From contig OX419755.1 in assembly GCA_948567375.1 (NCBI GenBank), positions 19,670,517 to 19,734,516 on the forward strand: DNA of 64,000 bases. The letters run 5' to 3'. The stretch is from Lunularia cruciata. Its lineage: Eukaryota; Streptophyta; Marchantiopsida; Lunulariales; Lunulariaceae. Shown here one piece after another: positions 18,974 to 43,344 of this stretch. The first letter of the stretch is position 1. Each line of letters begins with the position of its first letter. Below the pieces are notes generated by a model. It had not been told where the DNA came from. It saw nothing but the letters and a program-made list of their open reading frames with translations, and ran no database searches. Both the position numbers and the translations under genes were made by a program.

Positions 18974-18975
18974 CG

Positions 18976-19295: not shown

Positions 19296-19300
19296 TCTCC

Positions 19301-21441: not shown

Positions 21442-21801
21442 TTTATCCTTGGACTAAGATTTCACTTTGTCCTTGGAGTGAAGTTCCCTTTACTTTCTAT
21501 ATTAGAACTTCAACTTATTATGGTTAATCCTAGCAACTCCTTGAGATCATAGGTGTAATTGCTCCCACACCTTCTACACTATGGAAGGTCCAAAGTACTT
21601 AAACAAGAACTTCTTTGCACCCTTTTCTATCAAAAAAAATCCAAAAAAAATCCAAAAAAAATTACCAATCACCTTCCTTGAAAGGCTCTACATTCTTCTT
21701 TATTTTCCTCTTATCATAGATCTCCTTTTTTTTCCTTGGGCTCATTCCACTCAAATCATAGCAACTGCTCTTGCCTCCTCCCATTCCATGAGTTGATCCT
21801 T
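21442..21801. other. Short spacer with A-rich runs
   Basis: No clear assignment. It contains an AAAAAAATCC-type run near 21,636-21,665 and a poly-T stretch near 21,725. Confidence 0.35.
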
Positions 21802-22272
21802 TGTAGAAGTCCAAGACCGAGGAGAGAAATAGGAGAATGGAAGATCACAGTGAGACACTTGAATGTGGGTAAACTCCAAATGCCTAGCACGAGCTTTGGC
21901 TCTTTTATTTATGGGTAGCATACAAGGCCCTTGAGAAGCTTCTCAAGAAGCTTCCTTGAACCACTTTCTTGGAATGTAAGCCAAGTTAACTTGGAAGCTT
22001 CTCAAGAAGCTTCCTTGAGCCACTTTCTTGGAGTGCAAGCCAAGTTAACTTGGAAGCTTCTCAAGAAACTTCCTTGTTGAAGCCGCCTACTTGGCGTGCA
22101 AGCTAAGCTGGTTGGAAGCTTCTAGAAACTACCTACTTAGGATGTAAGCTAAGCTAGTGGGAAGCTCCCCAAGAAGCTTCCTGGATACTTTTAGAATATT
22201 TAAGGCTAATTTGGCCTATTCATCAATTTGTTAACCTTGACTAACTTTGTCGCTAAACTCCATATTGTTACA
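21802..22272 (-). repeat. LTR of heat-element gypsy family (3' LTR)
   Basis: Minus orientation, beginning TGTAACAATATGGAG at 22,272. Homologous to the LTR at 61,106-61,526. It carries about four tandem units of about 60 bp, each centred on the palindrome-like GAAGCTTCTCAAGAAGCTTC, and a TATA-like CATAAATA near 21,905. It follows the integrase of the adjoining pol directly, so it is read as the 3' LTR. Its heat-element motifs are partly eroded by C-to-T changes compared with the other copy. Confidence 0.8.
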
Positions 22273-24600
22273 TCCTTCCTTGACTTTTCTACATCACCTC
22301 CTTGTACCTTCTTCAATTTCTTATGAATGCTTTGAAAAGTAAGAAGATCAAAGTGAATAGATAAAGTAGATTCAATACTATGTACCAAATGAAATAGGGA
22401 GTATCCAATGGATTTCTTCATACTTTTCCTATACTCCCATAGAATTGCATGAATCATCTTGTCTTGATGATGTTTATCCCTCTCTATTTTTTCATCTTTG
22501 GCCAATCTCATCCATAAGGTTTGATTGGTTCTCTCTACCAAGCTATTGGAGTTTGTCTTATAGGATGTGGTCACTTTATGTATGATGGAGAAATTTTGTA
22601 GCATAGTTATAGATGCTCTATGTAAATTCTCCTCTTCTCTCTAAAACCAACTCCAAAGGGTAACCAAACGTAGTGATAATGCACTCATAAAGAAATCTAT
22701 CAACTTCATCTTCATTCTTATCTCTCAATGGTCTAGCTTTAATCCACTTGGTAAGGTTGTTAGTAAATATCATAATCTACCAATTTTTCCTTGGGAGTCT
22801 ATTGAGAAGACATACAAAGTTGATTCTCCACTTTCTTAAAGGTCCTAGCAATAGAATTGATTAAAGAGGTAGAGTGGAGGTAGAATTTCTAGCAAAAGCT
22901 TTACAAACATTACAAGTAATACAATAATCATGACAATCCTTAAAAGTCCCCCTCCAATGGTAATTTGCATCTAGAATCTCAAAAGAAATTAATTTTCTTG
23001 CAAAGTGACCTTCACATAATAAACCATCATGAAACTCCTTCATGAGTTAGATAGACTCCTCTTTACCCATTTCTCATCAAAGTAGACCATCTACTCCTTG
23101 GTGGAAAAGAATCTCTTCTACCATTGTGTAAGATCTTGCTACAAGGGCCTTCCTCTCCCTACCATGCATCTTACTTTAGATAGTTACCTCTTCTAACAAG
23201 TCCACAATCTCCTTGTATTGTATTGTAACTTCTTGAGTGATTAAGATGTTCATGAGCTCCTCATCTAGGAAGTAATCATCCACAAGCTCAACTCTTTCAT
23301 GATCATAGGCCTAGATGAAAAATCAGCATTTTTATATTGTTCCTTTGGCCTATCCTCAATGATTCAATCTTACTCAAATAAGAGTATTATCCATCTTGCT
23401 AGCCTTCTTTCCATATTAAGCTTGTTGAATATGTACTTCAAAACTTGTGAATTGTGACAATGGAAGCCTTCATTGAATCAAGTAGTATCAAAACCAAAAA
23501 TAACTACCAATCTTTTCCTTTTTGTGACTAAATAGTTTCTCTCTACTAAGACCATTTGTTTATTAGGATAAGCTATTGGATGAGCATGTACATCTTGGTC
23601 TAATTGACGAAGGTTTCATCCTATATAGATAAAGAATGAAAGTCTTACTCTAATCAAGTTTAGCAAGAATTGGAGCCATAATAATGGATATCTTGAGCTC
23701 CTTGAAAGCTTTGAGAACCTCCTTGTCCTCTAAATCACCATGTATTCTACATTCTTCAATGCGTAAGACTTGTTTGAAAATGAGAAGATGAATCTTCTAT
23801 AGTATCAAACCATCTCCAAAAATTGGCATAAATTTGTCAAGCTTGAAGGGAATGGAAGCTTTGAGATATTCCTCACCATTTCAAGATCCATTCCTATTCC
23901 ATCCTTGTAAATGTTATGCCCTAAAAATAGACATTATTCACAACCGAATATGCACTCTTCCAGGTTGAGTGATTCATTTACTTCATCTTAGTATTGCAAG
24001 ACCTTGATTAGATGCTCAAAGTGTTCACCTTTTCTCTCATAGATACAAAAGTCATTAAGGAAATCTCTCCAAAATTCCCAAATGAAAAGTTTAAATACCT
24101 GACATGAATTTTTGAAATGTTGTTGGAGCATTACAAAGTCCAAAAGACATGGCACTAAAATCATAAGTCCCCAAAGGTGTAGTGAAGGTTGTGAGTTGTT
24201 GATGTGCAATCTTGATTTGGATATAACCATTATAACCATCTTCAAAACTATACCCCTCTTAAATAGCAACCTAGTCCAAGATCTCATCAATGAATGGTAA
24301 AAGGTAATAGTCCTTCTTAGTAGCAATGTTAAGTTTCTTGCAATCCATACATACCCAAAGCTTACCATTCTTCCTTTTCTCAATCACAACTGGAGATACC
24401 TATCCACCACTCTTATTGATACTAGAGCCTTCTTCTTTGCTTTCTTGTTTCTCTTGCTCTTTGTATAGCTCAAACCACCTCTAAGTTCTTTTATCAAGAT
24501 AGGATTCAAAGTACTAAGTTGGCACACTATGATATTGGCTTTGTGATTACCAACATCCTCTAACATATTATAACCTTACTTTTGCTTTGAGATCAAGAAA
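22273..24600 (-). pseudogene. gypsy pol: RT and integrase, decayed
   Basis: The minus strand runs RT then integrase. RT contains a CMDCKKLN-like segment and a GLCNAPTTFQ-like segment in shifted frames (24,400-24,100), then DFCIYERKGEHFEHL (near 24,020), the region after the catalytic box. Integrase has the zinc region (GHFARK...YHWRG...CITCNVCK, 22,861-23,043) and the end of the core (YKTNSNSLVERTNQTL, 22,520-22,580), where the catalytic Glu is retained. Frameshifts and stops are frequent. This is a different gypsy family from the methyltransferase element; its 3' LTR is 21,802-22,272. Confidence 0.82.
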
Positions 24601-25179
24601 TCATCCATCCATTCTCAACTTCTTCCATTGAACCTTTTTTGATGATGGTATTGAAGTGGTAGTGCAAGTACTCCTTTTGAGGATTGGACTATCCTTGCTA
24701 GAAGTGAATCCTTGAGAACAAAGTGTATCCTTTGTAAAATGATCTCTCTTCTTCTCTTGAGCCAAAAGGTTCAAGTTAAGACCTCTAGAATTTTAGCATT
24801 TTCCCTTCCATATTTGCTTTCAACCATATCTATGGATACTATCCCCTTACCTCTAGTTAGACTAGGAGCTACTTGGGCTTCACCACCTTTTTTCTTCCCT
24901 CTATTTGATCTCATAACCCTTTCCTTGATGGTAAATGGAATTTGGGCAATTCCTTTAGATGTGACCTCTACCTCCACAACCAAAATAATTTATATCATTG
25001 AAATTGTTGGTTTTGACCTCCTTCATATAGATAGTCCCCGTAATCCATTAGCCCTCTCCCAAAATTTTGGTCCATCTCTCCCTTCTCCCATAGTTGTGCT
25101 ACATTGATCTTGAGATCTACAAGTTGTTCCATGATGGTTGAAGTGGATCGTTAAGTGAAGGTATAATAACCAGAGCAAC

Positions 25180-25862
25180 AACTTTGTGGTGCACCTCTTG
25201 CCACCATACAATTACAGGCTCTACCATACTTGTAGACTTGTGGAAAATGCACAACTTCCTTCACCATCAAATCATTCTCCTCTTTAATACTACATGGACA
25301 AGAGAACTTTCTAATAAAGAAACAAGAGAGAAACACAAGCTTCACACTAACTACTTTGATGCTCCAAAGGAACACCTTCTCTTTATTATATAGCAAAGAA
25401 AATCCCCTCAAAGGAAGCTCCATCCTTGGATCAAATACCTAGATTGGTGACATATCAGCAAGCTCTTCCTTTAGACTAGTTGCCTGGATGGGTGACATTT
25501 GGTCCTTGTCATATCTGGTTGGTCAAATAGGTTTGACCAAAAAGAATCTTTAGAGATTTTTTATGTAGGAATCTTGAAATCACATGGATGAGGTACCATA
25601 AGAAAGCTTGTGATGAGACAAATCTGGTGTAAGCAAAGGCCAACTTCTCCTCTATTGGGAGGAATGTGCATATTTTTAGTCCTAATTCATCCGTTTAGGC
25701 CTCCAAGTTTTCAAGCTTTTCTTGGTTCCTACCCTATTAGTACAAGTACTCTTTTGGTGATACCTCTATCTAATCTACTAATTCCATCATATATAATATT
25801 CTCCTAGATGTTACCGGACTAATTTTCACCTCTAGATAATATGTCTAGCTATTGGTATTACA
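25180..25862 (-). repeat. LTR-like repeat family 2, copy b
   Basis: Minus orientation, starting TGTAATACCAATAGCTAGA at 25,862. It is inserted between gag (25,900-26,450) and pol (22,273-24,600) of the gypsy relic. Inverted relative to copy c at 27,538. Confidence 0.7.
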
Positions 25863-25899
25863 TCATCCTCTTCCAAACTCTTCTCCATAGAAATTGCAA

Positions 25900-26450
25900 T
25901 CTTGATAGCTCCTACCTTGGAAGAAAGTTTCTCATATTTCACTTTGCTTCAAATTTGTGGGTTTAATCTTCTCACAATATTCTTGGTAAGCATAGCTCCC
26001 ATCCCAATCATAGTGATCTCTACATCATTCTCACTCTTTCTCAACTTTGTGTGGAATAAGGACTCTAACTTCTCTACTCTTTCTGCATATGTTCTCATTT
26101 TCTTTGCATCTCCTTGCTTGGGAAAGGTAACCTCACTCATCAATCTCTCATAACTTTCATTCAGGAGAAATTTCTTAATAAGTATAGTAGTCAAGCTCTC
26201 CCAAGACTCCTCTTGGTCATCTCTCCTCTCTTTATACTTGTATATAGACTCTCACCATGTAAGAGTAACATTCTCAAAGAAATCAAGTAATAATGAGACC
26301 CACTCTTTCTTCTTCCTCTCATTATTACCTATGCAAGATTTCTTGAAGTCTTTCATAAAAGCTTCCACATCTTCTTTATCCTTGCCAGAGTAAACCAAAA
26401 CTTTCTCCATCTTAGCTTCTCAATACTTTTATCCTCTCTCTATTTTTTAC
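25900..26450 (-). pseudogene. gypsy gag fragment
   Basis: The minus-strand reading contains a retrotransposon gag region: VYSGKDKEDVEAFM and a W-rich segment near 26,400-26,280, then FLLNESYERLMSEV and RMRTYAERVEKLESLF-like wording (25,949-26,194). It precedes the pol relic in the expected order. A stop near 26,255 breaks the frame. Confidence 0.65.
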
Positions 26451-26639
26451 TTTTGTCTCTCATCTTATGACTAATAGAATACAAATATAATTAATACCAT
26501 TTGAGAGTATTCAACCATAAGGAACACAAAAGGTTCAAATTGCTCTAAAATTTCCATTGCATAATCAAATCCTTCAGTGCATTTTCATCAAACCCTCATG
26601 GATAGTTTATACATAAGTTGAAAAATTACCTCCTTCACT

Positions 26640-26960
26640 AATCTTGAGAACTAGTTGATGAAAGTGGCAGTTTCTCTATAGTACTCTCCATGATATTTCA
26701 CCAATGTCTCCAACAATGTTCTTGCTACTCTACAATCATAGCTCTTTGGAAGTCCTTCTACTCCACATGCCTCAAACAACTCCTTGGTCCTAGATCTCCT
26801 TCCCTTCTTCCCCCCCAATCTTGGTGAAGAAGGTCCAACATGCAATCCCAAGTCAAGTAAAGCTCTCCTTTCTCTCAATCTTTTTCTCTCAAAACTCAAT
26901 AAACATTAACTTGCCTTGTATCCCTTCTCTCCACATAAGAAGCACTTAGAATCACTATTT
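26640..26960 (-). pseudogene. Zinc-knuckle fragment of a retroelement
   Basis: The minus strand near 26,940 gives CFLCGEKGYKAS-stop-C, a CCHC knuckle with the His replaced by Tyr and a stop before the last Cys. A basic stretch (FERKRLRERRALLDLG) and a region resembling the start of a protease follow down to 26,651. It probably belongs to another retroelement piece, since a knuckle upstream of gag would be out of order for the neighbouring relic. Confidence 0.45.
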
Positions 26961-27537
26961 CTTCCAAACGTTGAAGGTCTTTCAATCTTCTTAATATTTT
27001 CTTCAAATTCTAATCTAAAATCCCCTTTCTTCAAATCAACCAATCCTATCTCTTTAACCCTTGAGAAACCTTACATAACCTCAACTTCACTCTTGATGAC
27101 CTTTTATGCTTACAAAATGACTATGAACACATAAACATGCTTTTGGTTATTCTCATGCTCCTCATGCATGAGAATTCATCTCTCCAAAAATAATCCCTCC
27201 TCACAATGTCAATCTATTCTCCCAAATTACCAACTAGTGCACCTCCACTATATGGACTAATGCTACTAGAGCTAGAGTTTGTGGATATTGTCAATTTACC
27301 TTTAGAAATTGAGCCTAAAGTGATAGAGATGTAGTTTTGGAATACCAATTTTATCTTTATAGCTCAATCTTCTCCAAATAAACTCTCTTGAACTCATGTC
27401 ATCCATAGCAGATCTCCTAAGTGTTAAAAAAACCTCATCCATGCCATGAAAGGTGTGAATAAAGTTGGGTTCCACATCTATTGTAGATCACATCAACTAT
27501 CAAAACTTGCGGATGAGATCATCCAAATCAATGGTAT
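26961..27537. other. Unassigned AT-rich DNA
   Basis: No feature recognised. Confidence 0.35.
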
Positions 27538-28302
27538 TGTAATACCAATAACTAGATAGATGATCTAAAAATGAAAGTTGGTTTGGTAACATCTAGAGGA
27601 TGTTATACATGATAGACTAAGTAGATAAGCTAGAGGTATCACCAAAAGAGTACTTCTGCTAATATACCAAAAACCAAAACATGCTTGGAAACTTTAGAAT
27701 CAATAGTTAGGCATATGATCTAAAGGTGAAACTTGGGGAGGTAGCATCTCGAAGGATTTTACACATGATGGAGAACGTAGATTAGATAGAGGTATCACCA
27801 AAATAGCACTTCTACTAATAGAGCAGAAGCCAAAATAGGCCTTAAAACTTCAAAGGCAATTTTGGAGGCCTAAACGGATGAATTAGGCCTTGAAAATGTC
27901 AAGATTCCCTTCCTCCCAATGGAGGAAAAGCTGGCCTTCCCTTCTTCTAATTTGTCTCACTGAGAGCTTTCCAATTTTACCTCACCCATGTGATTGTGAG
28001 ATTCTTACAAGAAGATTCCCTAAAATATTCCCTCCAATCAAAGCCTATTTGACCAACCAGATGGGACCGGGACCAACATGTCACCCATCCAAGCAAGTAA
28101 TTTAAGGGTGGAGCTGACAGGTCACTGATCTACATACCTAATCCTATGGTGGAGCTTCCTTGGAGGAGATCCTCATTGGCTATATAATAAAGAGAAGTTG
28201 CTCCTTTGGGGCATCGTAGGATTGAGTGTGAAATCTGTGTAATATGTGTTCTCTCTTGTATCTCTCTTGTAGAGTTCTCTTGTCCTTGAATTATTACAAG
28301 TA
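27538..28302 (+). repeat. LTR-like repeat family 2, copy c
   Basis: Starts TGTAATACCAATAACTAGA. Its first about 130 bp are present twice in tandem (about 27,550-27,690 and 27,700-27,835), both containing GGTATCACCAAAA and CTTCTGCTAAT-like words. Its right end touches the gag fragment of the methyltransferase gypsy family at about 28,303. Confidence 0.68.
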
Positions 28303-29180
28303 CCCATCATACCATAGTAGCACTTGGGGCTTTTGGAGACCATATGAATCTTTTCCACATCAGAAAACAATGGTGCAAACGCACTATATGCACTCTCAAC
28401 TAAATAAGCTCTTGTGTTAGACTCCAAATCAAATCAATCTCCTCCTTCATTATGACTTGAGATATGGATTCATACCTAGCACCACTTTAAGTAAACCCAC
28501 TATGTTCTATAGCAAGATCTCTTCTAGAATTCCCAAAGAACTCCTTCTTAATGATGTATCCCAAATCACAACCATAACCACCAAGTACCACCACCAACTA
28601 AAAACCACCCATTAATTTAAGTCTAAATATCTAAACTACACTTGAAGAAAGAGAAACCTATAACCTAACATCACAACATGCACTCTCATGGTCTACATGT
28701 CATCACTTCTTACCTCAATAGAGAGAAACATAGATAGTTTGATTGATCATCACTCAAACCTCACTACCAAAAGCACACAATAGCACTAACACTCTCAATA
28801 TCAAGGCACCTCACACAAAGATGGTGCACAAAAAAAAAAAGAATATAGGAGTTCCAATCATAAGAAATCTCAATGATAACCCTTCATTTCACAAATCAAA
28901 ATGGATTGACTCTATTACCATTTGGCATTTGACATAATAGGAATGTCAATCTACTCCTATGCTACCAAGATCACCAAGAATGGAATCAAACATCCTCTCT
29001 TAGCTAAAACTACATGGCTATAGTCCACCAATCTTTAGGACAACAAGTGCAAGTGGACTAGTTGGCAAGAGCACCTATCTACAAACTAAATATCCAAGGT
29101 TCAAAATTATTACACACAATCTTGAAGGGTGGGCTGATTTTGCCAAAAAATTACCAAAAACTCAACTAATTGGGTAGACT
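28303..29180 (-). mobile_element. 5' fragment of methyltransferase gypsy (gag start and leader)
   Basis: The minus strand matches the main element from about 35,440 back to about 34,530: the first gag residues (ESNTRAYLVESAYSAF aligns with the ELEFDTGADSVESALG segment), the leader, and the primer-site-like region. The match around 28,905 corresponds to 34,787-34,800 of the main copy. Transitions are abundant. It continues rightwards into a tandem array made from the next leader segment. Confidence 0.8.
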
Positions 29181-30334
29181 CACATCAACAAGTTGGCTTG
29201 TTGGCCCTTCTAGGCCTTTGTAGTCTCTTTAGCCCATAGCTTTATGCCTCAAAAGTTCTAAATAAACTGATAAACTAGCTAGCCTTGCATCAACAAGTTT
29301 GCTTGTTTGCCTAGAACTCAAAACCTCTAAATAAATTGATAAATAGGCTAGCCTTACATCAAAAATTTGGCTTGTTGGCCTAGAACTCAAAACCTCTAAA
29401 TAAATTGATAAACTAGCTAGCCTTACATCAACAAGTTGGCTTGATAAACTTATAAACTAGCTAGCCTCACATCAACAAGTTGGCTTGTTGGCCTATAACG
29501 CAAAACCTCTAAATAAACTGATAAATTAGCTAGCCTCACATCAACAAGTTGGCTTGTTGGCCTAGGACTCAAAACCTCTAAATAAATTGATAAAATGGCT
29601 AGCCTCACATCACAAGTTGGCTTGTTGGCCCTTCTAGGCCTTTGTAGTGTCTCTAGCCCAGACTATGCCTCAAAGCCTCTGAATAAATTGATAAATTGGC
29701 TAGCCTCACATTAACCTTTTTAGTCTCTCTAGCCCATAGCCATATGCCCCAAAACCTTTAAATTAACTAGCTAGCCTCACATCAACCTTTGAAGTCTTTC
29801 TAGCTCATAGCCATGTACCTCAAAACCTCTAAATAAATTGACAAGTGGCTAGCCTCACATCAAATTTTTTAGTCTCTCCACCCCATAACCCTATACCTTA
29901 AAAACTCTAAATAAATTGATAAAGTAGTTGGTTTTTTGGCCACTCCAAGCCTTTGTAATCTCTCTATCCTATGCCTTAAAGCCTATAAATAAACTAATAA
30001 ATGGCTAGCCCTCTCATCAACAACTTGTTGGCCCTTCTATGCTTTTTTAGTCTCTAGCTCACATCTCTATGCTCAAACCTTCTAAATAAATTGATAAATT
30101 GGCCAGTCTCATATCAACAAGTTGGCTTGTTGGCCCTTCTAGGCCTTTGTAGTCTCTCTAGCTCACAACTCAATGCCTCAAAGCCTCTAAATAAATTGAT
30201 AAATTTGCTAACCTCACATCAACCTTTGTAGTTTCTCTAGCCCACAGCCTTATACCTCAAGACCTTTAACAAAACTGATAAACTGGCTAGCTTCACATTA
30301 ACAAGTTGGCTTGTTGGCCCTTCTAAGCCTTTGT

Positions 30335-33408: not shown

Positions 33409-33857
33409 TGTCACGCCATTTGTAGTTCCGCATCTAGATGCTCGGACACTGGAGTTCCAATGATGGTAGTTAGAGTTATTCTAGCTGTTTCTCAAGGACT
33501 ACTTTCCGACGGTTAGATTTTGTGTTCGGGGTACTGACTTCACGGTGGGGCCCACCATCACTTTGCACCGTTTGCACCGTCGAGTGTGCCGTCAACGGGA
33601 CCGTTAGGGTTTCAGGGCTAGCTCGAGTCCAGGGGGTATAGTTTCAAAGTGAGCTCCAGAGAGCTCACTTCTCTGATGTTGAGCCTTCGAGTTCCTGGCT
33701 ATGGTGGACAGAGGCCGGCGAGCGTCACCTGGATTCTCTATGCTTGAGTGGGTGTGGCTTGACTGTAATCAGTGCCCAGTTGTTGGCAGTTTATAGAGTG
33801 ACAGATCAAGTACTGATCTGAGTTGAGTTGAGTTGAGAATGTTAAGCAATCTGATTA
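33409..33857 (+). repeat. Terminal segment B, left copy
   Basis: Starts TGTCACGCC. It matches 42,790-43,238 over 449 bp with five differences, all G/C in the right copy and A/T here, three at CG and two at CHG sites. It contains GGGCCCACC and a repeated GAGTT motif near its end. Confidence 0.92.
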
Positions 33858-35112
33858 CATCAGAGAAGTGAAGTCAGGGGGAAATCGGGTGCAGGAACGT
33901 TGAGTGTTGGTGGTATCTCCAAAGCTTGGTGGATCGTGGTAGCTTGATTCAGGTTCTGTGTTTCCCTAGTGTGCAGAAGCTCGTGTAGTTGATGCAAATT
34001 TGGCAGTTAGGCGGACGGTGTGCGGAAGCGCTGGCCAAATTTCGAGCAAAGAAGGAGCAATTTTCAAGCAATGTTGTGATTTTGAGCTCAAGAGGTGAAG
34101 GCAGGACCAATTTGCTGCGAGTTGGGCTCAGAAAGTGAAATTGAAGGTGGAGTTGGAAAGCTCTTCTCATGAAATTGTGATTTGGAAAAACCCGTTTTGT
34201 CAATTTGGCTCGAGTGGAAAGTTAGCGGGGGATTTGGCGGACATCCATCTTTAGGGTTTACGTCAGATTTTACGTCAGATTTACGTCAGATTTTGGGCCA
34301 GAATTGGAGGAGTTTTGCTGTTTGGCCAGATTTGGAGAAGTTTCGCTAGTTTGGAGGAGTTTCGCAGATTTGGAGAAGGTTCGAAGTGGCAACAAGAAAG
34401 GCCTCATTTGGCTGAATTTCGAGGTTTCGAGGTTTTGAGGCATAGGGCTGTGGGCTATGAGAGGCTACGAAGGCCTAGAAGGGCCAGAAGAGCCAGCAAG
34501 CCAGCTTGCTGGCGTGAGGCTAGCTAGTTTAGTGTAGATCTTGGTCATTGGTTGGCAAAATCTGCCTTTCTTGCTAGATTGTGCGCAACAGGGTTTGACC
34601 CCTAGATCTCTTGTTCCTAGACTGGTGCCCTAGCCAACTGGTCCACCCTCACTTGTTGTCATAGTGACTGTGCCACTGTTATCTATACACATGTAGCTTT
34701 GGCTAGGAGAGGCAGTTTGATCCCATTCTTGGTGATCCTGGTAGCTTAGGACTTAGATACGAACTACTCTTATGTCAAATGCCAAATGGTGGCAGAGTCA
34801 GTCCCGTGTTGTGTTATGAGATGGAGGGTTTTCGTTTAGATTTCTTGTGATTGGATCCCCTCCATTCTCTGCTTCCTGTTTGTGCACCACGTTTGTGTGA
34901 GGTGCCTTGACTTTTGAGCGTTGGTGCTCTGGTGTGCTCTCGGTGGTGAGGCTAGAGTGATGACCAGTCAGACTACCTTTGTTTCTCTCCGGTGAGGCAG
35001 GAAGTGATGACCTGCAGACCGTGAGAGTGCGTGTTATGATGGCAGGTTACAGGTTGCCCCTCCCCTAGTGTAGTTATCTCGGTTAGAGTTACATTAGTGG
35101 GTGGTGTTTTAG
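33858..35112 (+). other. Gypsy leader region
   Basis: Runs from segment B to the open frame. It contains three closely spaced ACGTCAGATTT repeats (34,258-34,298), a single copy of the satellite unit (34,424-34,530), and a sequence resembling a tRNA primer site, TGGTGGCAGAGTC, at 34,787-34,799 (10 of 12 positions like the initiator-Met type). No long reading frame of clear meaning; 34,315-34,527 is open but arginine-rich and overlaps the satellite-forming segment. Confidence 0.7.
34787..34799 (+). promoter_or_regulatory. Possible primer-binding site
   Basis: TGGTGGCAGAGTC resembles TGGTATCAGAGC used by many plant LTR elements, with two internal mismatches. It lies 1.38 kb from the left terminus, far from the end of the repeated segment B, so its role is uncertain. 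The aligned site in the minus copy (about 28,905) reads TGGTAATAGAGTC. Confidence 0.4.
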
Positions 35113-37416
35113 TTGGTGTTGGCACGCGGTGGTGTTGGCACTTGGTGGGGCACTTGCGGTTGCGACTTGCTGTTGCAGTTGGTGGTTCGGGTTTGTTGGT
35201 GTGGTTACTTTGTCACGACGGAGTTCTTTGGAGATTCCAGAGGAGTTAGCCCTGCAGTACGCAGTGGGTTTACTCGGAGTGGTGCTCGGTATCAGCCTGT
35301 ATCTCAGGTCCCAGTGAGGGAGGAGATTGACTCTGAGTTGGAGTTCGACACAGGAGCTGATTCAGTTGAGAGTGCACTTGGTGTGTCCGCACCGTTGTTG
35401 TGGGACATGGACGAGATTTATGGGGCCTCCAAAGGCCCTAGGCGTTACTCTGGTACAGTGGGTACCATTGAGTTGGATGACTTCATCCAGGAGTTTGATA
35501 GTTGGTGTGATCTGCAGCAGATGCGGAACCCGACTTTGTTCACACCCTTCATGGCATGGAAGGGGTTGTTTCAGCACTTGGAGGGTCCACCGATGGACGA
35601 CTACCATGAGTTCAGGAGAGTTCATTTGGAGGAGATTGAGTTATGGAGACAGTATTGGTCTCCACACTATGTCTCCATCACTTCAGGTTCGGTGGCCAGG
35701 AGTAGGTCGGCTGTACCTACGAGTTCTAGCTCGAGTAGTGTTGGTGGAGCTAGTGGAGGTGCACTAGCTGGAGATAGTGCTACTACGAGTGGAGGTACCG
35801 CTGCAGGAGGTGGTGTGGTACCGGGGTTTAACCCCATGGTTGAGTTCTTCCTATGTTTGAGGCAGAACTACCAGGGAGTGCGGACTGACAAGCTGAGGAG
35901 CTTGCAGGAGTTCCAGCGGAAGGCTGGAGAGAGCCTACGCGAGGCATACACTCGCATGAGGCGGCTGATCAGTTTCACTCAGGGAGTTACTGAGGCCCAG
36001 GCAGTCCAGTTTTGGTATGGGATACTGGACAGGGAGTTGCGACGTAGAGTTCGTGATGCTACGTTGTTGCAGGCTACTTTGCCCACTTTGGCAGTAGTCT
36101 TTGGTTTGGCTGAGCGTATTGAGCTCAACATGGTGGAGGAGAGAGTGGTGACATCTGGATTTGGTAGAGAGACCTCATCCACGGTTGTGACTTCTTCTAG
36201 AGTGCAGCAGAGTGCACCACGCCCAGTTGGTTTTCGAGGACATGGTGGACAGCCCAGATCCTATGGAGCGAGTGGAGGGCCTAGTGGAGTTAGACCCTTA
36301 CCCTCATTTTCGGGGCAGCAGCAGCCAGTGAGTGGTGGTGTTGCTTGTTGGACTTGTGGTGGACCTCACCATAGGAGAGAGTGTACTCAGGGCAGCGGAC
36401 CTGATACCTCTGGTGCATCACAGCCAGCACAGAGGCAGTGTGAGCACTGCCATAGATTTGGTCATACTAGTGACCGGTGTTTTGACCTACACCCGGAGTT
36501 ACGGAGTGGTAGGGCTGCTATGGCAGGTAGTAGAGGAGCTCCAGTTCATGGAGGACGAGGTGGTAGAGGTGGTGGTAGAGGATCTACACCTAGTAGGGAT
36601 GCAGTACCTGCCCTTACTTCTGACACAGCTATGGCTACTCGGATTGAGCAGTTGGAGCAGAGATTGGCTAGTATGGCTATTGCTCATAGGAGATCAGATT
36701 CGGGTGCTGAGGCTTCCACCTCATATGCTGGTGATAGAGATGCTTTGGACTTCATGTGCGGAGCAGCACAGGTGGATGCATCTGCAGCAGTGACTAGGAG
36801 TGCAGTACGTGCTCCAGAGCCTAGAGGAGCATCAGTGGAGTTGGACCCACAGAGAGGAGAGGTTGGGAGACAGGTCAGACTTCCCCAATCTTTCACGTTA
36901 TCTGAGGCATTGCAGATGACATCCATGGTTCCTAGACGTCCCAGTGCAGGTGTGGTAGGTGGTGATGGAGTACTTGATGGAGTACCTGCTAGTCAGCCAC
37001 CTGCTACTACACAGATTGAGTCTAGCATGATGTTGGGGGCGGCTCAGCTGATTATGCGGCATCCTTTATTTTCAGCCAGTGACATGTTTACATTGGGAGT
37101 GGACCCAGCCCCAGTGTTCCGGTTGGCTGCCACGTTGTGTGAGAGTAGGGATGGTGCAGTTCCTACTACTAGAGCAAAGGTGGTTGGTAGTGGAGCTGAC
37201 TTGGTTGAGGAGCATGGGATCCGTTCAGCGACCAGTGGTTTATGGCAGGCAGCAGCGGCTAGACTGGAGGAGTTGCCAGCTAGACCGGCCTTTGAGAGAG
37301 CGCGGTTTACACCTGGTGTTGTCCTATTGGATAACCAGAGGGGGATCTTTCGTTTGGTAGGACCTTCAGGGAAGATCTATACACCACAGAGAGTCTTGTT
37401 AGACTCTGGTGCGTAG
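35113..37416 (+). CDS. gag with two zinc knuckles
   Basis: Structural polyprotein part that packages the element's RNA. Retrotransposon gag domain at residues about 236-345 (FNPMVEFFLCLRQ through AERIELNM). Two zinc knuckles: CWTCGGPHHRREC at about 411-423 (CX2CX4HX4C spacing with His pair) and CEHCHRFGHTSDRC at about 442-455. An Arg/Gly-rich stretch (GGRGGRGGGRG) follows, then a predicted short coiled coil (MATRIEQLEQRLASM, about 506-520). Gly/Ser-rich low-complexity stretches near 190-230. The frame ends in TAG directly after the protease active-site residues DSGA (37,402-37,413), so this is not a natural gag end but a mutation within the fused protease. Confidence 0.88.
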   Translation: MVLARGGVGTWWGTCGCDLLLQLVVRVCWCGYFVTTEFFGDSRGVSPAVRSGFTRSGARYQPVSQVPVREEIDSELEFDTGADSVESALGVSAPLLWDMDEIYGASKGPRRYSGTVGTIELDDFIQEFDSWCDLQQMRNPTLFTPFMAWKGLFQHLEGPPMDDYHEFRRVHLEEIELWRQYWSPHYVSITSGSVARSRSAVPTSSSSSSVGGASGGALAGDSATTSGGTAAGGGVVPGFNPMVEFFLCLRQNYQGVRTDKLRSLQEFQRKAGESLREAYTRMRRLISFTQGVTEAQAVQFWYGILDRELRRRVRDATLLQATLPTLAVVFGLAERIELNMVEERVVTSGFGRETSSTVVTSSRVQQSAPRPVGFRGHGGQPRSYGASGGPSGVRPLPSFSGQQQPVSGGVACWTCGGPHHRRECTQGSGPDTSGASQPAQRQCEHCHRFGHTSDRCFDLHPELRSGRAAMAGSRGAPVHGGRGGRGGGRGSTPSRDAVPALTSDTAMATRIEQLEQRLASMAIAHRRSDSGAEASTSYAGDRDALDFMCGAAQVDASAAVTRSAVRAPEPRGASVELDPQRGEVGRQVRLPQSFTLSEALQMTSMVPRRPSAGVVGGDGVLDGVPASQPPATTQIESSMMLGAAQLIMRHPLFSASDMFTLGVDPAPVFRLAATLCESRDGAVPTTRAKVVGSGADLVEEHGIRSATSGLWQAAAARLEELPARPAFERARFTPGVVLLDNQRGIFRLVGPSGKIYTPQRVLLDSGA

Positions 37417-37986
37417 CCCCTTATGTTGGGGAAGGCTGCAGTTGTTGGTCTGGAGTTACGGAAGACCGATGTGGAGAGGTGTCCATTTCAGATCCAGACA
37501 TCTCTTGGTGGTGGTTCGACACAGTACATCACACGTGGAGAGCTTGTTGTCCAGGTTCAGCCTGGTCATCCGACTGATAGCTCGGTGGTGAGAGCTCAGG
37601 CTATTGCGACGATAGCTGAGTCCTATGATGTGCTAGTTGGGGGAGCAGTGTTATACCCTATGGGTTTCAGTATTGACTATTGGGAGGAGACAGCCTCTTA
37701 TAGACCTGGTTGGCAGTCTGGTGAGGGACGGGTATGTCGCCTACCAGTACGCTTCAGTAGTGGCAGTCTTGGCTCACTACAGTCCGGGACCATGGCAGCA
37801 TCAGTTTTGGCTTTCAGCGGTGCAGTTACTTGGCCTGGTGACTTGTTGGAGGGGAACGCCCATGCAGAGGATACTCCAATACCAGAGGAGATCACTCGGC
37901 TATGGAGTACGAGTGGGATTGTTCCATCCACCTTGGATGTTCCATTGTGGAGTTCAGAGGAGGCATTGCAGCAGCATGCAGATTAG
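37375..37986 (+). pseudogene. Retroviral-type aspartic protease and linker
   Basis: The active site VLLDSGA is followed, after the TAG at 37,414-37,416, by PLMLGKAAVVGLEL, the standard continuation of Ty3-type aspartic proteases; the codon between them is Gln-type (CAA) in the copy at 62,340. A hydrophobic VLVGGAVLYPMGF segment near 37,630-37,670 fits the flap-to-C-terminal ILG-like region. The linker runs to stops at 37,984 and 37,996. The protease would cut the polyprotein into its parts. It is broken here by the stop at the active site. Confidence 0.8.
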
Positions 37987-38064
37987 TTGGTGCAGTAGGC
38001 TTGGAGTGGAGCCTTCGTACCATCAGGGGATGAGTGTGAGGATGAGCCTCCAGAGGCGATTGCT

Positions 38065-39075
38065 TTGACACCTCTGGATACCACACTCATTGCTTGGCAG
38101 TATCCAATAGAGGGGATATGCCTATTGGAGTTGTTTGGTGGGATCAGCACCGGACTAGCTGCGGTATTACAGGCGGGTATCCGAGTACAGAGGTACTTGT
38201 ATGTAGAGAGAGATGAGACTGCTAGGCGAGTCTCTCTACATCATGTGGCACACTTGGCCTATCGGTATCCGGAGTTATTACCGATGTCAGCAGTCAGAGG
38301 TTACCAGAAGGCCTTACCAGGAGACATTTCCTTACTGGGGGCGCATGACCTAGAGAGACATGGGCCTGTTCACTTGGTGATTTCTGGATGGCCATGTTAG
38401 GGACATACACGTGCGGGCCGCGGTTTGGGTCTTTAGGATCCTCGTTCTGGTGTGTTTTGGGAGATGTTACGGATACTACGACATCTCCAGGTTCATCAGT
38501 CTGTTTCTCCAGCTTACCTTTTGGAGAACGTTCCATTGATGGGTGATTCTCGCACTAGAGTGGTGGCGAGTACACATCAGGTCCATTCATGGATGGGACC
38601 TGCTGTATTGTTAGATGCAGCCAGAGTGGGATCACGGGCTCATCGTCTTCGTCTTTGGTGGACAAACCTCTTACCCAGAGAGGTTCTACAGCGTGCTTAT
38701 GATGGGATTCAGCGACTGGACCACATTCTTGTTGATGATATCTTGGATGTTGGGCGTCAGTCTCAGACAGTGGTAGTGGCTGATAGGTCACCCATGGCAG
38801 TGGTGAACCTAGTTGGACAGCCTAGAGCTGCATTTCCCACACTCATGAGTTTCCCAGGCTCTCATGCTTTTCGAGAGGGAGGACCTGGACTTGTTTGGGA
38901 CTCACAGTTACAGTAGTTGGTGGAGCCCAATGCTGATGAGAGAGAGCGGGCGATGGGTTTTCGCACCGGTATTACCGCTGTTCCAGTAGTGTCAGAGCCA
39001 TCCAGGCGTCAGGTGTTAGGTCAGGCTATGGACCTGAACTATTTGACCTGGATTGTGAGCCTTGGTTTGGCAGAG
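38065..39075 (+). pseudogene. DNMT3-type cytosine-5 DNA methyltransferase domain
   Basis: Contains the C5-methyltransferase motifs in canonical order. Motif I is LLELFGGISTGLAAVL (38,119-38,166, AdoMet binding), with the acidic motif II in YVERDE. Motif IV is SGWPC (catalytic Cys at 38,395-38,397). Motif VI is ENV (38,524-38,532). Motif VIII is DAARVGSRAHRLRLWW (38,614-38,661). A motif IX-like segment is ERERAMGF (about 38,938-38,961) and motif X is RRQVLGQAMDLNYLTWI (39,004-39,054). The FGGISTG wording, AHR box and RERAMGF...LGQ end resemble DNMT3. The order is not the permuted one of plant DRM enzymes. Stops at 38,398 (next to the catalytic Cys), 38,434 and 38,914 disable it. No N-terminal PWWP or ADD domain seen nearby. 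Confidence 0.9.
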
Positions 39076-39507
39076 CAGCGTAGGATGCGCTTGATAGGCA
39101 TCACCACTCGGACACTTGTGAGCCCTGTGCCTATCGAGACGATTCAGGCACATGCTGGGGGCGATGGACCGAGTGGACATGGTATTCTTGGGACACATCC
39201 AGTAGCTACTAGGGAGAGTGGTCTACTTGGAGTCCATCCAGGTGAGCGTGGGCTACTTGGATTACACCCTTGGTCCACATGGGATGCAGCCAGAGGACGT
39301 ATGGAGCTTGCAGCCAGAGTGGAGGGAGTTTTTCACACAGAGGTTGGGACCTCTAGTGGTCGGGAGCATGACACCATTGCTCCCAAGGGCCCAGTATAGC
39401 AGCCAGTCAGTACGTCTTCCACTCCTACTACAGTTACAGAGGATACTTGGGAGCCAGATCTTGGACCCAAGCTTACTGGAGAGGAAAGACGGAGGGTTTG
39501 GAGGTTC
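39076..39507 (+). other. Linker between methyltransferase and RT
   Basis: Gly/His-rich in-frame stretch with two imperfect repeats (LLGVHPGERG and LLGLHPWST), then a Ser/Thr/Pro-rich segment after the TAG at 39,397. No known domain recognised. Part of it (to about 39,370) is preserved in the old minus copy, where the RT deletion begins. Confidence 0.6.
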
Positions 39508-41211
39508 TTGAGGAGTCACATGAGTTGTTTTGCCTTCAGTATGAAGGATTTGGGTGCTCTGAAGGGACCTGGTATACGGATTGAGCTGACTAGCGACACA
39601 CCTGTTTTCCGACATCCTTATCGATATAGTGAGATGGAGAGGACATTGATTCAGAGCCGGAGTAGTGACCTTTTTGAGGCTGGTTTGGTGGAGATTTCAC
39701 ATGGAGAGTATGCATCAGCGACAATGATGCCAGCCAAGAAGGATATGCATGGCAACTATACAGATAGGCGGATGTGTGGAGATTACCGTCCTATCAACCG
39801 ACAGACCAGGGCTGATCGGTATGCCATGCCTACACCGGAGGAGATTTTTGATGCGATTGGGCATGCAAAGGTCTTCAGTACTTTGGATCTTCGAGCGGGA
39901 TATCATCAGTTGCCGATCAGGGAGGAAGATAAGTCCAAGACAACATTTTGGGCTATTGATCCTCACGGCAAGGATGTGTTATATCAGTGGAGATTCTTAC
40001 CATTTGGGTTGAAGAATGCTCCTGCTGAGTTCCAGAGGGTCATGGATAGGATCCTAGCTGGACTGGATTTTGCTCGGTGCTATATTGATGACATTTTGGT
40101 GTATAGCACTACTGTGGAGGAGCATGAGAGACAGTTGTTGGAGGTGTTTGAGAGGTTGAGATCTCATGGACTCAAATTACATCCTGGGAAGTGTAGGTTC
40201 TTCCATGAGCAGGTTGAATATTTGGGTCACACTATCTACCCCGGAGGACTTGGTGTTCAGCAGACCAAGGTGGAGGCTATTGCACGTATTCCTCGGCCTA
40301 CGGATGTGAGCAGAGTGCGAGCATTCCTTGGGTTGGCAAACTTCTATCGCCGCTATGTTAGAGGATTTAGTGCCATTGCCAAGGCCTTGACGAAGCTGAC
40401 CAAGCTTACACAGGAGTGGTGTTGGGGAGATGAGCAGGAGAGAGCTTTTGTAGAGCTCAAGGAGAGGTTGACATCTGCTCCTATTTTGAGGAGACCGATC
40501 AGGGGACGACCATTTCAGGTTCACACTGATTGGAGTATGTTGGGGCTTGGAGCGGTGCTCACCCAACATGATGATGAGGAGAAGGAGTTTGTGGTGGCCT
40601 ATGCTAGTCGCTCTAACAATTCAGCGGAGGCGAAGTATAGTTCATATGAGGGAGAGTGCTTGGCAGCAGTTTGGGCAGTAGCACATTTCCGATGTTACCT
40701 ATTTGGTAACCCCTTCACTCTCATCACTGATCATCAGCCGCTGAAGTGGTTGATGGAGTCCGACAAGCTTTCAAGGAAGCTTGCACGATGGGCTCTGATT
40801 TTACAGGAGTATGATTTCACGGTTGTTCACAGACCTGGAGTGGTGAACCGTGATGCAGATGGGTTGAGTAGAAACCCATGTCCCAGCCAGCAGGATCAGA
40901 CCGGAGCACGTTGGCATGGTGAGACAGATGAGGAGATGGTGCCAGGTTGGCATGCATCAGCCTTTCTGTGTATATTTGCAGAGACATTGGTGGTATCTCT
41001 CTCAACGCATACAGGAGGAGTTATTGAGGTCACAGATCCAGAGAGTGAAGATATTGGTACAGTTCAGCGAGACATTCATGATGATGTCTTAGTGATGGAC
41101 TATCTTCGCACTGGTGTTGTGGGTGGCACAGTCGGGGCCAAGGAGAGAGACCGTGTTCTTCAGCGAGCCAGACGGTTCAGATTGGAGGGTAGACACCTTT
41201 TGCGTGTATGA
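39508..41211 (+). CDS. Ty3/gypsy reverse transcriptase and RNase H
   Basis: RT copies the element RNA and RNase H removes the template. Signatures: CGDYRPIN with KVFSTLDLRAGYHQ (39,777-39,909), FLPFGLKNAPAEFQRVMD (39,997-40,050), catalytic box YIDDILVYS (40,081-40,107), FLGLANFYRRYV (40,324-40,359). RNase H keeps its acidic residues: VHTDWS, YEGECLAAVWAVAHF and LITDHQPLKWL (40,519-40,755). This portion has no premature stop until TGA at 41,209 (CGA-type in context), just before the integrase zinc domain. It is the best-preserved part of the polyprotein. The open frame begins after the TAG at 39,397 and a preceding linker. Confidence 0.93.
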   Translation: MRSHMSCFAFSMKDLGALKGPGIRIELTSDTPVFRHPYRYSEMERTLIQSRSSDLFEAGLVEISHGEYASATMMPAKKDMHGNYTDRRMCGDYRPINRQTRADRYAMPTPEEIFDAIGHAKVFSTLDLRAGYHQLPIREEDKSKTTFWAIDPHGKDVLYQWRFLPFGLKNAPAEFQRVMDRILAGLDFARCYIDDILVYSTTVEEHERQLLEVFERLRSHGLKLHPGKCRFFHEQVEYLGHTIYPGGLGVQQTKVEAIARIPRPTDVSRVRAFLGLANFYRRYVRGFSAIAKALTKLTKLTQEWCWGDEQERAFVELKERLTSAPILRRPIRGRPFQVHTDWSMLGLGAVLTQHDDEEKEFVVAYASRSNNSAEAKYSSYEGECLAAVWAVAHFRCYLFGNPFTLITDHQPLKWLMESDKLSRKLARWALILQEYDFTVVHRPGVVNRDADGLSRNPCPSQQDQTGARWHGETDEEMVPGWHASAFLCIFAETLVVSLSTHTGGVIEVTDPESEDIGTVQRDIHDDVLVMDYLRTGVVGGTVGAKERDRVLQRARRFRLEGRHLLRV

Positions 41212-41223
41212 GAGGATGGTAGA

Positions 41224-42513
41224 GTGCGAGTAGTACCACTTCTATCACAGAGACCACAGTTGGTCCGTCATGCTCATGAGGAGCTAGGACATTTTGGAGT
41301 AAAGCGTACATATAGCTTACTCCAGAGTCATTATTGGTGGCGCGGTATGCAGACCGAGGTACAGCAGTTTGTTGCCAGATGTGTGGTTTGTGACCGAGTT
41401 AGAGCATCATTCAATGCTCCTACGCCACAGTTACACCCATTACCTATCATGGGATTGGGTTACCGTTGGAGTTTGGACTTCACCGGACCTTTACCGCTGA
41501 CTGTGAGACATCATCGGTATGTTTTGGTGATGGTGGAGCACTTCTCCAAGTGGATTGAGTTGGTGGCACTTCCTGACAAGTCTAGTGAAGGGACAGCTTA
41601 CTCGTTCCTGGATCGAGTTCTTAGTCATTTTGGTGCACCAGCTGAGGTTTTGACTGATCAGGGTACAGAGTTCTTGGGAGAGTTTCAGGTCTTGTGTGAC
41701 AAGGCTTTGATTGATCATCGTACTACATCCCGAGATCACCCTGAGGCAGATGGCTTAGCAAAGAGAGTGGTTCAGACGGTGAAGAGAGGATTGCAAAAGT
41801 ATGGTTTGCAGAGAGGCCACTTGGGAGATTGGGATCTCCAGTTACCTTGGTTGGCCATGGGCTATCGGTTCAGCCGGCAAGCCTCCTTAGCATCCTTCTC
41901 TCCATACTTTCTACTCTATGGACGAGATCCAGATTTACTTGCAGCCATTCGTCGAGATGCTACTGTAGTTTTGGACTTGGATGACCCTGATGTATGGATG
42001 AGCGCATGTTCTCAGCGGGCAGAGATCTTTCGGAGAGTGATGCCGATGGCCTTCGAGAACTTGGCGATTGCTCAGCATAGAGATACTTTACGCTATGCTA
42101 CCATTCGAGGAGGAGGTTATAGACCCTCAATCCGTCGATTTCATCCAGGCGACTATGTATATCTACAGCAGACAGCACCGACGACACTTGATGTTTCTAC
42201 AGGCCGCACTATCTTGAGAGTGCGCGAGGTTTTGCCATCTGGAGTCCTTGTGTTAGAAGGACGTGATGGTGTTGTTTGGAAGGATCATGTGCGCAATTGT
42301 GCGCCATGCCACCTCCCAAACATTGATGGTACTATGGACCCAAGCTTGGCACTTGTACGTGCAGGCTTGAGGTGTATGTTATGTGGCTCTTCTGGTGGAG
42401 CTGCTACTATGTTAGTGTATGATAGATGTTCGAGAGGATGGCATATGGCATGTATGACTCCTCCCCTCACGGTGGTTCCTCAGGGACAGTGGTTATGTCC
42501 TAGATGTACTTGA
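41224..42513 (+). CDS. Integrase with C-terminal PHD-like zinc finger
   Basis: The integrase inserts the element copy. HHCC zinc domain: HAHEELGHFG then CVVCDR (41,269-41,397). Core: LDFTGPL (first Asp, near 41,479) and LTDQGTEF (second Asp, near 41,659). At the position of the third acidic residue (Glu in GQAERVN of relatives) this copy reads GLAKRVV, Lys at 41,761-41,763, so the DDE triad is lost. After a C-terminal domain comes a PHD-like finger, 42,373-42,507: CMLC, then YDRC, GWHMAC, WLCPRC. The third ligand is Tyr (TAT, 42,418-42,420); the old copy has Cys there. The finger sits where chromoviruses carry a chromodomain. Confidence 0.88.
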   Translation: MRVVPLLSQRPQLVRHAHEELGHFGVKRTYSLLQSHYWWRGMQTEVQQFVARCVVCDRVRASFNAPTPQLHPLPIMGLGYRWSLDFTGPLPLTVRHHRYVLVMVEHFSKWIELVALPDKSSEGTAYSFLDRVLSHFGAPAEVLTDQGTEFLGEFQVLCDKALIDHRTTSRDHPEADGLAKRVVQTVKRGLQKYGLQRGHLGDWDLQLPWLAMGYRFSRQASLASFSPYFLLYGRDPDLLAAIRRDATVVLDLDDPDVWMSACSQRAEIFRRVMPMAFENLAIAQHRDTLRYATIRGGGYRPSIRRFHPGDYVYLQQTAPTTLDVSTGRTILRVREVLPSGVLVLEGRDGVVWKDHVRNCAPCHLPNIDGTMDPSLALVRAGLRCMLCGSSGGAATMLVYDRCSRGWHMACMTPPLTVVPQGQWLCPRCT

Positions 42514-42670
42514 CCTATAGCTAGTTCATTCTTTATATGGTATAGATTGCAGACAGGCGACTAACGATGGGGCTCCATAGCACCCGGCCTCCTGATCTTT
42601 GCCCATTAGAGGGTATACCATATACTTAGAGTAGATGGCTATCTGGAGTTAGAGGGACCTAACCACCAGC

Positions 42671-42681
42671 TAGGGGGGCGA
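42671..42681 (+). promoter_or_regulatory. Polypurine tract
   Basis: TAGGGGGGCGA immediately before segment A (TTGTGGCAC). In LTR elements such a tract primes plus-strand synthesis and abuts the 3' LTR. Confidence 0.65.
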
Positions 42682-42787
42682 TTGTGGCACTTTAGAGTCT
42701 ATGTATGACTTATGTGTGAGTTGTGCTTTTATAGTGTATGATGTTGACAGCGATGTATGTTGTGTAGCGATGTATATACGCACGACA
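42682..42787 (+). repeat. Terminal segment A, inner copy
   Basis: 106 bp from TTGTGGCAC to CGCACGACA, with one difference from 43,239-43,344 (a G/A at a CG site). It follows the purine tract and is joined to the second segment B by a GC dinucleotide. Confidence 0.92.
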
Positions 42788-42789
42788 GC

Positions 42790-43238
42790 TGTCACGCCAT
42801 TTGTAGTTCCGCATCTAGATGCTCGGACACTGGAGTTCCAGTGATGGTAGTTAGAGTTATTCTAGCTGTTTCTCAAGGACTACTTTCCGACGGTTAGATT
42901 TCGTGTTCGGGGTACTGACTTCACGGTGGGGCCCACCGTCACTTTGCACCGTTTGCACCGTCGAGTGTGCCGTCAGCGGGACCGTTAGGGTTTCAGGGCT
43001 AGCTCGAGTCCAGGGGGTATAGTTTCGAAGTGAGCTCCAGAGAGCTCACTTCTCTGATGTTGAGCCTTCGAGTTCCTGGCTATGGTGGACAGAGGCCGGC
43101 GAGCGTCACCTGGATTCTCTATGCTTGAGTGGGTGTGGCTTGACTGTAATCAGTGCCCAGTTGTTGGCAGTTTATAGAGTGACAGATCAAGTACTGATCT
43201 GAGTTGAGTTGAGTTGAGAATGTTAAGCAATCTGATTA
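42790..43238 (+). repeat. Terminal segment B, right copy
   Basis: TGTCACGCC start, 449 bp, direct repeat of 33,409-33,857. The left copy has A or T at all five differences, so this copy is the less eroded one. Confidence 0.92.
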
Positions 43239-43344
43239 TTGTGGCACTTTAGAGTCTATGTATGACTTATGTGTGAGTTGTGCTTTTATAGTGTATGATG
43301 TTGACAGCGATGTATGTTGTGTAGCAATGTATATACGCACGACA
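43239..43344 (+). repeat. Terminal segment A, outer copy
   Basis: Second copy of the 106-bp segment, ending CGCACGACA directly at the right ATTA target duplication (43,345-43,348). Confidence 0.92.

Follow-up and report, generated by a model that had tools for sequence, protein, structure and literature searches.

Retrotransposons that carry a cytosine methyltransferase (MT) were published in 2018 from a charophyte alga and from dinoflagellates (de Mendoza et al., PMC5890265), much as the original prediction for the locus studied here had stated. The closest of them is KnitGypsy-Dnmt3, a Dnmt3 in Gypsy elements of Klebsormidium nitens, for which that paper reports purifying selection; expressed in yeast, the MT from this alga produced no methylation, a result that the authors call inconclusive. 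SymbioDIRS-Dnmt3 and SymbioLINE-Dnmt are also retrotransposons with a cytosine MT, but they are dinoflagellate elements of the DIRS and LINE classes rather than Gypsy; SymbioDIRS-Dnmt3 methylates CG de novo in yeast, and methylation of cDNA is discussed for DIRS elements (PMC5890265). A further paper, citing the 2018 work, mentions DNMT3s in retrotransposons that it terms LTR Copia and DIRS (PMC12344493).

The element described here, copy A, lies in a 64-kb window (the whole stretch of DNA analysed, 64,000 nucleotides) of Lunularia cruciata, for which a 580 Mb assembly and gypsy bursts have been reported (PMC9985172). Compared by published description, not by sequence, copy A is like KnitGypsy-Dnmt3 in joining a Gypsy-type pol to a non-permuted, intronless DNMT3-related MT, and the repeats of KnitGypsy-Dnmt3, DIRS-arranged with Gypsy domains according to the Fig. 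4 legend, may match the A-internal-B-A-B order found here (PMC5890265). Copy A differs in having a stop between MT and reverse transcriptase (RT), which the published description of KnitGypsy-Dnmt3 does not mention, and a PHD finger, a term absent from the main text on that element (PMC5890265). No Klebsormidium label occurs among the matches listed in our three protein searches (the best 120 of 233 in the third). A gypsy element with a Dnmt3 has been known since 2018; what we did not find in the literature is the readthrough layout, the abundance, the two MT positions and the wider range, and a search of titles and abstracts gave no paper on such a layout, on liverwort, moss or chlorophyte members, or on two MT positions. 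The present results extend retrotransposon DNMT3s from the charophytes and dinoflagellates found in print to liverworts, mosses and chlorophytes.

Layout of the Element

Copy A reads gag, protease, MT, RT, RNase H, integrase and PHD finger in one reading frame, with the following features.

33409..43344, + strand: Ty3/gypsy element, copy A, decayed
35113..39396, + strand: first frame, gag-protease-MT, 1,428 codons from stop to stop, broken in copy A by six private or rare TAG stops
36346..36480, + strand: two gag CCHC zinc knuckles, by motif reading
37396..37983, + strand: aspartic protease region, LLDSGA at 37396-37413; resembles the protease region of relatives
38065..39120, + strand: DNMT3-type C5 cytosine MT domain, motifs I-IV-VI-VIII-IX-X in order, catalytic Cys codon at 38395-38397
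39397..39405, + strand: family-wide TAG-CAG-CCA stop in a TMV-type readthrough context at the MT/RT boundary, from copy alignment and genomic k-mer counts
39508..41208, + strand: RT and RNase H (Pfam: RVT_1 39760-40236, RNase H 40507-40812)
41224..42510, + strand: integrase and C-terminal PHD finger (H2C2 41245-41406, core 41461-41742, PHD 42373-42507)

The RT, RNase H, integrase and PHD finger of copy A all exceed their Pfam cut-offs. The gag model stays below its own (15.1 vs 24.1 bits), though the two CCHC knuckles are present, and a Pfam scan of 37423-37986 alone, in the protease region, gave no match. The DSGA of the protease (within 37396-37413) and the YIDDI of RT (40081-40095) are both in the frame of the MT. 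Eight in-frame stops interrupt copy A from 37414 to 41209, and the third acidic residue of its integrase is Lys, where L053 and L056 have Glu. An open frame of 1,428 amino acids is seen repeatedly among genomic copies, the longest of the 150 scored reaching at most 1,448. The order protease-RT-RNase H-integrase, the DDE integrase domains and 4-bp target duplications place copy A with Ty3/gypsy elements. Rfam and tRNA scans of the window returned nothing informative.

Identity of the Methyltransferase Domain

The MT of copy A contains, unpermuted and in a single frame, the segments that we take to be motifs I (38128-38142), IV (GWPC, 38386-38397), VI (LENVP, 38521-38535), VIII (AHRLRLWW, 38638-38661) and IX/X (38932-39033), with the catalytic PC Cys, the ENV Glu and the RxR all present. 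When three open pieces of 38065-39399 were run separately against Pfam, no family was matched at E 0.1; read whole, with X at each stop, the stretch matches PF00145 at E 3e-6 (27.3 bits, cut-off 22). DNMT3A, DNMT3B and DNMT3C make up the best 29 of the 51 PDB sequences matched at E ≤1 (top E 1.9e-10), followed by HaeIII (E 0.0037) and DRM2 (E 0.025), with DNMT2-type tRNA methyltransferases at E 0.23-0.29. The profile search that had been proposed as a check, together with the DNMT3 matches in the PDB, thus bears out the original prediction of a DNMT3-type C5-MT with motifs I, IV, VI, VIII and X in canonical order, and on this sequence evidence it is near certain that the element encodes such an enzyme. 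The predicted region, 38065..39075, was right in its start and its domain but short at the other end, since the coding stretch with its tail runs from 38065 to 39396.

Plant DRM enzymes share DNMT3-related catalytic motifs with the retrotransposon MT (retro-MT). Their motif order is different, however: the DRM-type host genes of the same genome (L050, L054) have motif VI before motif I, so that a DRM identity can be rejected, as had been anticipated. Host L049 and L052 match DNMT3A in the unpermuted order; like animal DNMT3A/B they share motif order and closest sequence match with the retro-MT, but their matches fall in separate pieces, read as exons. The genome thus appears to have predicted DNMT3 and DRM genes of its own in addition to the element's enzyme. 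A phage origin of the MT was also considered and set aside, one MT piece having had no match in a phage collection.

Abundance of the Family

Family copies without the MT, named in the original prediction as the sign of a one-off insertion, did not turn up in the window. A whole-element DNA search of the 64 kb found two further copies, both carrying the MT after the protease, for three MT-bearing copies in all.

61529..64000, + strand: copy B, decayed and truncated at the edge of the window, with 82% DNA identity; MT from 63018
9326..29262, - strand: copy C, pieces 71-81% identical, separated by other sequence; MT at 13669-12461

Across the genome searched (565.8 Mb in 74 contigs), a 32-mer from the MT has 3,111 matches at up to 3 mismatches, and its reversed control has 0; in K. 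nitens, by comparison, DNMT-element copies are described as fewer than in Symbiodinium (PMC5890265). An MT piece gave 9,301 first-look genomic candidates, and the 150 that were scored show 95-99% identity. We fetched 40 copies from these 150 (about every fourth row plus two more), and every one of them aligns over both protease and MT; in 38 the match covers the full 4 kb as far as RNase H, L020 and L031 being shorter at 1,773 and 2,508 bases. These genomic copies were located via their MT, so that MT-less members of the family would escape the sample. The three copies in the window and the thousands of genomic matches are incompatible with a one-off insertion of the MT into a single element. 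The MT is a standing trait of a very abundant Ty3/gypsy family, one that is large and recently active and of which copy A is a decayed member.

Terminal Repeats and Integrated Form

33409..33857, + strand: repeat A1, left end, TGTCACGCC...GATTA; target duplication ATTA at 33405-33408 to its left; 5 differences in 448 from A2
42682..42787, + strand: repeat B1, directly after the purine-rich stretch GGGGGGCGA
42790..43238, + strand: repeat A2, direct repeat of A1
43239..43344, + strand: repeat B2, right end, followed by target duplication ATTA at 43345-43348

The gag (by its CCHC knuckles), integrase and terminal repeats that had been predicted around the MT are all present, but the repeats are not ordinary LTRs. 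In place of a plain LTR pair, the integrated form of copy A is A-internal-B-A-B, with a left A of 449 bp and a right B-A-B in which B is 106 bp. Ends were fetched for 8 of the 40 other copies. The right end is B-A-B in 7 of these 8, which rules out an integration accident in copy A, and each of the seven left ends that could be located begins with A (that of L047 was not found). In the seven copies read at both A1 and A2, copy A included, the two differ by 0.4-3.9% mismatches, with a further 12 gap positions in L014. Target duplications of 4 bp are exact in 7 of the 8 copies read at both ends, again with copy A, and L032 keeps 3 of 4 bases. These duplications and the retroviral-type integrase domains speak against a DIRS-like element; a tyrosine recombinase was looked for via Pfam on the open frames only. 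L011 (termini L061 and L062) has only one B at its end, with a target duplication that matches; it arose either by integration of a one-repeat circle or by recombination between B1 and B2.

With the purine-rich stretch immediately upstream of B1, the expected product of reverse transcription is BA-internal-BA. The integrated form is permuted relative to this product, as if a two-repeat circle had been opened at B|A, and the B|A junction, GACAGCTGTC, is a palindrome. No clear tRNA primer site was found after A1.

A Conserved Stop between Methyltransferase and Reverse Transcriptase

The TAG at 39397 is present in 40 of 41 aligned copies (copy A and the 40 fetched), the exception, L020, ending before the site; L053 and L056 have TAG at this position as well. 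Of 731 exact genomic matches to a 30-mer containing this stop, 726 have T at the variable base and 5 have another base. The other seven in-frame stops of copy A are each a stop in only 1-4 of the 41 copies, and codon 41209, for example, is TGG in 36. We therefore rejected the idea that all eight stops are readthrough codons: seven are private or rare decay, and that at 39397 alone is family-wide. The original prediction of an MT fused into a Ty3/gypsy polyprotein holds in that protease, MT and RT share one frame, but this stop parts MT from RT, which places the MT in the gag-protease frame.

A leaky stop context of TMV type follows the rule CAR-YYA. This motif follows the TAG in 39 of the 40 aligned TAG copies, mostly as CAGCCA, and the fortieth has a deletion there. 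The UAG region of TMV itself gave 32% readthrough in plants in a reporter study (PMC2754532). Folding of the 124 nt from the stop onward gave no stable RNA structure (z +0.72), and a structure aiding readthrough is thus discounted within that stretch. Among the 41 copies, 13 have no interruption of the frame between protease and TAG and 12 have none in the RT-RNase H frame beyond it; 6 are open in both. Since the TAG closes the gag-protease-MT frame, RT, RNase H, integrase and PHD finger probably need readthrough, and we consider it quite likely, from the sequence, that RT is made in this way. Stop suppression has a precedent among plant retroelements in SIRE1, a Ty1/copia element whose in-frame stop is read through between pol and an env-like frame (PMC2829016). 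As in TMV (PMC2754532), the stop in the present family is in frame with what follows; unlike that of SIRE1, it sits between MT and RT and would set their ratio.

Relatives were inspected for the same end point. Termination 88-114 residues past motif X is found in 13 of 29 (P0002 and P0034 from Calypogeia; P0083 from Sphagnum; P0105 and P0114 from Marchantia, P0114 being labelled partial; P0107, P0020, P0117-P0121 and P0123), and none of these 13 is one of the proteins with RT; this shared end point is supporting rather than decisive because a listed protein may also stop where its contig or its gene model does. P0003, P0005, P0024 and P0111 end earlier and P0124 later; the motif pattern used did not fit P0106, P0109 and P0112, whose tails resemble that of P0105. 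P0108, P0113, P0115, P0127, P0134, P0140, P0141 and P0145 continue from MT into RT.

Relatives and Trees

Three protein searches, each scoring only the 8,000 candidates that share most words, returned 102, 50 and 233 proteins (the best 120 of 233 listed in the third). Among the matches listed, the named sources of relatives are Marchantia, Riccia, Calypogeia, Sphagnum, Closterium, Haematococcus and a Chrzof1 identifier, read as Chromochloris, most of the remaining relatives being environmental or transcriptome records; the closest named MTs, again among the matches listed, are from Calypogeia (63-69%), Marchantia (up to 73%) and Sphagnum (71% over 60% of the query). The MT occupies two places. 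It precedes RT in Marchantia, Sphagnum fallax, Closterium and some environmental or transcriptome records, and it follows RT/RNase H and precedes integrase (chlorophyte type) in Haematococcus, the Chrzof1 protein and many environmental or transcriptome records. The domain order in 133 proteins is RT-MT-integrase in 81, MT-integrase in 34, MT-RT in 10, RT-MT in 4 and MT-RT-integrase in 4, proportions that mean little because the third search began from an RT-MT-integrase protein. Pfam scans of six long relatives gave RT-RNase H-MT-integrase-PHD in three and protease-MT-RT in P0140 (Closterium); P0145 and P0127 had no PF00145 match in the scan, and their MT was recognised by similarity to that of copy A. 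A PHD finger 3' of integrase is found in copy A (42373-42507), in three distant relatives with the MT elsewhere and, below the cut-off, in P0145; it is perhaps a chromatin-reading targeting module.

Trees were built from 39 MTs and 31 RTs picked by hand (23 of 85 with MT after RT, 6 of 14 with MT before RT, the window and a few more). The two trees agree, and both split by MT position: in the MT tree the after-RT group has support of 94/86 and the before-RT group 75/72, and in the RT tree the split has 97/99. The phylogeny proposed as a check, run with host DNMT3s, DNMT3A, DRMs and retro-MTs, sets the retro-MTs apart as a group of their own at 100/99, with only five references (two host DNMT3s, DNMT3A and two DRMs), each less than half filled. 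A fresh capture from a liverwort host DNMT3 was rejected: a clade of four liverwort retro-MTs, the window's included, with the two host DNMT3s and DNMT3A has a p-AU of 0.0019. These trees are most simply read as showing an MT and an element that came together long ago, the MT having moved once since, and the spread of the relatives suggests a single ancient partnership in green plants, not an isolated event in one alga; capture on two occasions from the same source, or exchange from one element to another, may also account for the pattern.

Selection and Catalytic Residues

An MT match is present in 256 relatives, of which 164 near full-length ones were used for residue counts. The catalytic Cys is kept in 161 of the 164, the ENV Glu in 163 and the RxR Args in 159 and 160, while a comparison position beside ENV varies freely among Ile, Leu and Val. 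In 74 of the 164 (P0130, P0133, P0139, P0140 and others) the Pro of motif IV is replaced by Glu (EC for PC), an unusual change adjoining the catalytic Cys.

The dN/dS comparison suggested in the original prediction gave a divided answer: for the MT it is 0.46 (0.33-0.63) between copies A and B and 0.42 (0.32-0.56) between A and C, but the values for A-L053 (0.45, 0.18-1.07) and A-L056 (0.87, 0.56-1.44) are not distinguishable from 1. The gag tail and protease, at 0.44 for both A-B and A-C, are like the MT, and integrase gives 0.56 for A-C. In the 41 copies, MT variants seen once comprise 115 non-synonymous or stop changes vs 58 synonymous, and those shared by at least 3 copies 18 vs 21 (one-sided p 0.015; variants in two copies were counted apart and unused). 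The same test gave p 0.004 for protease and 4e-6 for RT/RNase H, and it was not significant for the MT core alone (p 0.28) or for the MT C-to-T class alone (p 0.10). The ranking of copies by MT similarity may bias these tests, and MT codons are free of stops and gaps in only 20 of the 41 copies. These comparisons give moderate support to purifying selection on the MT in lineages that replicate.

C/T differences between copies occur at 0.043 in CG, 0.037 in CHG and 0.018 in CHH contexts, and changes of C to A or G at 0.010-0.012 in all three. Being commonest in CG and CHG, the C/T differences suggest that integrated copies are themselves methylated, by whichever enzyme.

Proposed Mechanism and Alternatives

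Our best explanation builds on what is observed (an MT domain and where it sits, a fixed TAG with the context around it, conservation of catalytic residues, tree agreement, abundance, repeats and target duplications) and adds what we infer: that readthrough occurs, that the MT is packaged, what its substrate is, and how element or host may benefit. The first frame would yield gag-protease-MT and end at a leaky UAG, and occasional readthrough would add RT-RNase H-integrase-PHD; because the MT lies in the first frame, before the leaky UAG, it would be made at gag-like levels, above RT. The MT would then be freed by the element's protease, packed into particles with the RNA and, most likely, methylate new double-stranded cDNA inside them. 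Insertions would arrive marked already, the host keeping the methylation up, and a presumably haploid host would be spared new copies that are expressed immediately, with a minority of expressed copies still spreading the family. As a whole, a leaky-UAG element with a particle-packed MT that methylates its own cDNA is the account toward which we lean, with some reserve; for the element's own cDNA as the main substrate we put the chances at even.

The conserved TAG could also be a plain terminator, with RT-integrase made by splicing, internal initiation or reinitiation, which would fit the lack of RNA structure after the stop and the Marchantia models: P0110 and P0116 join MT to RT across a spacer shorter than the window's, as though an intron had been predicted there, and MT runs into RT in P0108 and P0113 too. 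We regard this as unlikely, given that the downstream frame is the same frame, that the TAG stands in a TMV-type context, which has been assayed in plants (PMC2754532), and that the Closterium and environmental proteins P0134, P0140, P0141 and P0145 have MT and RT in one protein, some of these being gene models in which introns may have been predicted. The MT itself might be a passenger, or an enzymatically dead part with a structural or DNA-binding role; its frequent stops and gaps, with clean MT codons in fewer than half of the aligned copies, and the only moderate outcome of the selection tests lean that way, but retention of the catalytic Cys, ENV Glu and RxR Args in 97-99% of 164 relatives beside a position that varies makes such a role highly improbable.

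Where the enzyme acts is a separate matter. C5-MT folds can act on RNA, and methylation of the element's RNA or of a primer tRNA, as DNMT2-like enzymes do, is conceivable. De Mendoza et al. suggest RNA methylation for the LINE enzyme (PMC5890265). The closest matches of the present domain are to DNMT3, however, and with DNMT2-type tRNA methyltransferases reached only at the E values given above, an RNA substrate is most unlikely. That the enzyme works in trans, its target being the host genome or other elements, as in a disturbance of host silencing, strikes us as improbable: a first-frame MT could be plentiful and would not be tied to RT, and effects on host genomes are discussed for dinoflagellates (de Mendoza et al., PMC5890265), but an MT carried next to protease and gag would favour packaging into particles, and the CG/CHG bias of the C/T differences suggests methylation of the copies themselves, by whichever enzyme.

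Methylation of the element's own cDNA can be joined to the other findings in a wider reading, offered tentatively and with more doubt than belief: one ancient gypsy lineage would have taken up a DNMT3 early in green plants and kept it with the PHD finger as a chromatin-writing and -reading module, in two places of the polyprotein; a circular two-repeat intermediate would integrate via the palindromic junction; and in land plants the leaky stop would keep the MT far above the polymerase, with insertions pre-methylated. The family makes testable the question of why a transposon would carry the kind of enzyme that silences transposons. With thousands of copies in one genome, a possible translational switch for the balance of MT and RT, and family relatives known from both Marchantia and Sphagnum, such tests could be made in tractable plants.

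Other Sequences in the Window

A Ty1/copia element (RVT_2, Pol_BBD and copia gag) lies at 14305-18761 on the - strand, between pieces of copy C. At 23310-24354 on the - strand there are fragments of another gypsy-like RT, a distant relative with 25-34% identity to the element's RT. Repeats spaced by 69 bp at 29193-29681, with relatives near 30070-30348, match the 5' untranslated part of the element (copy C).
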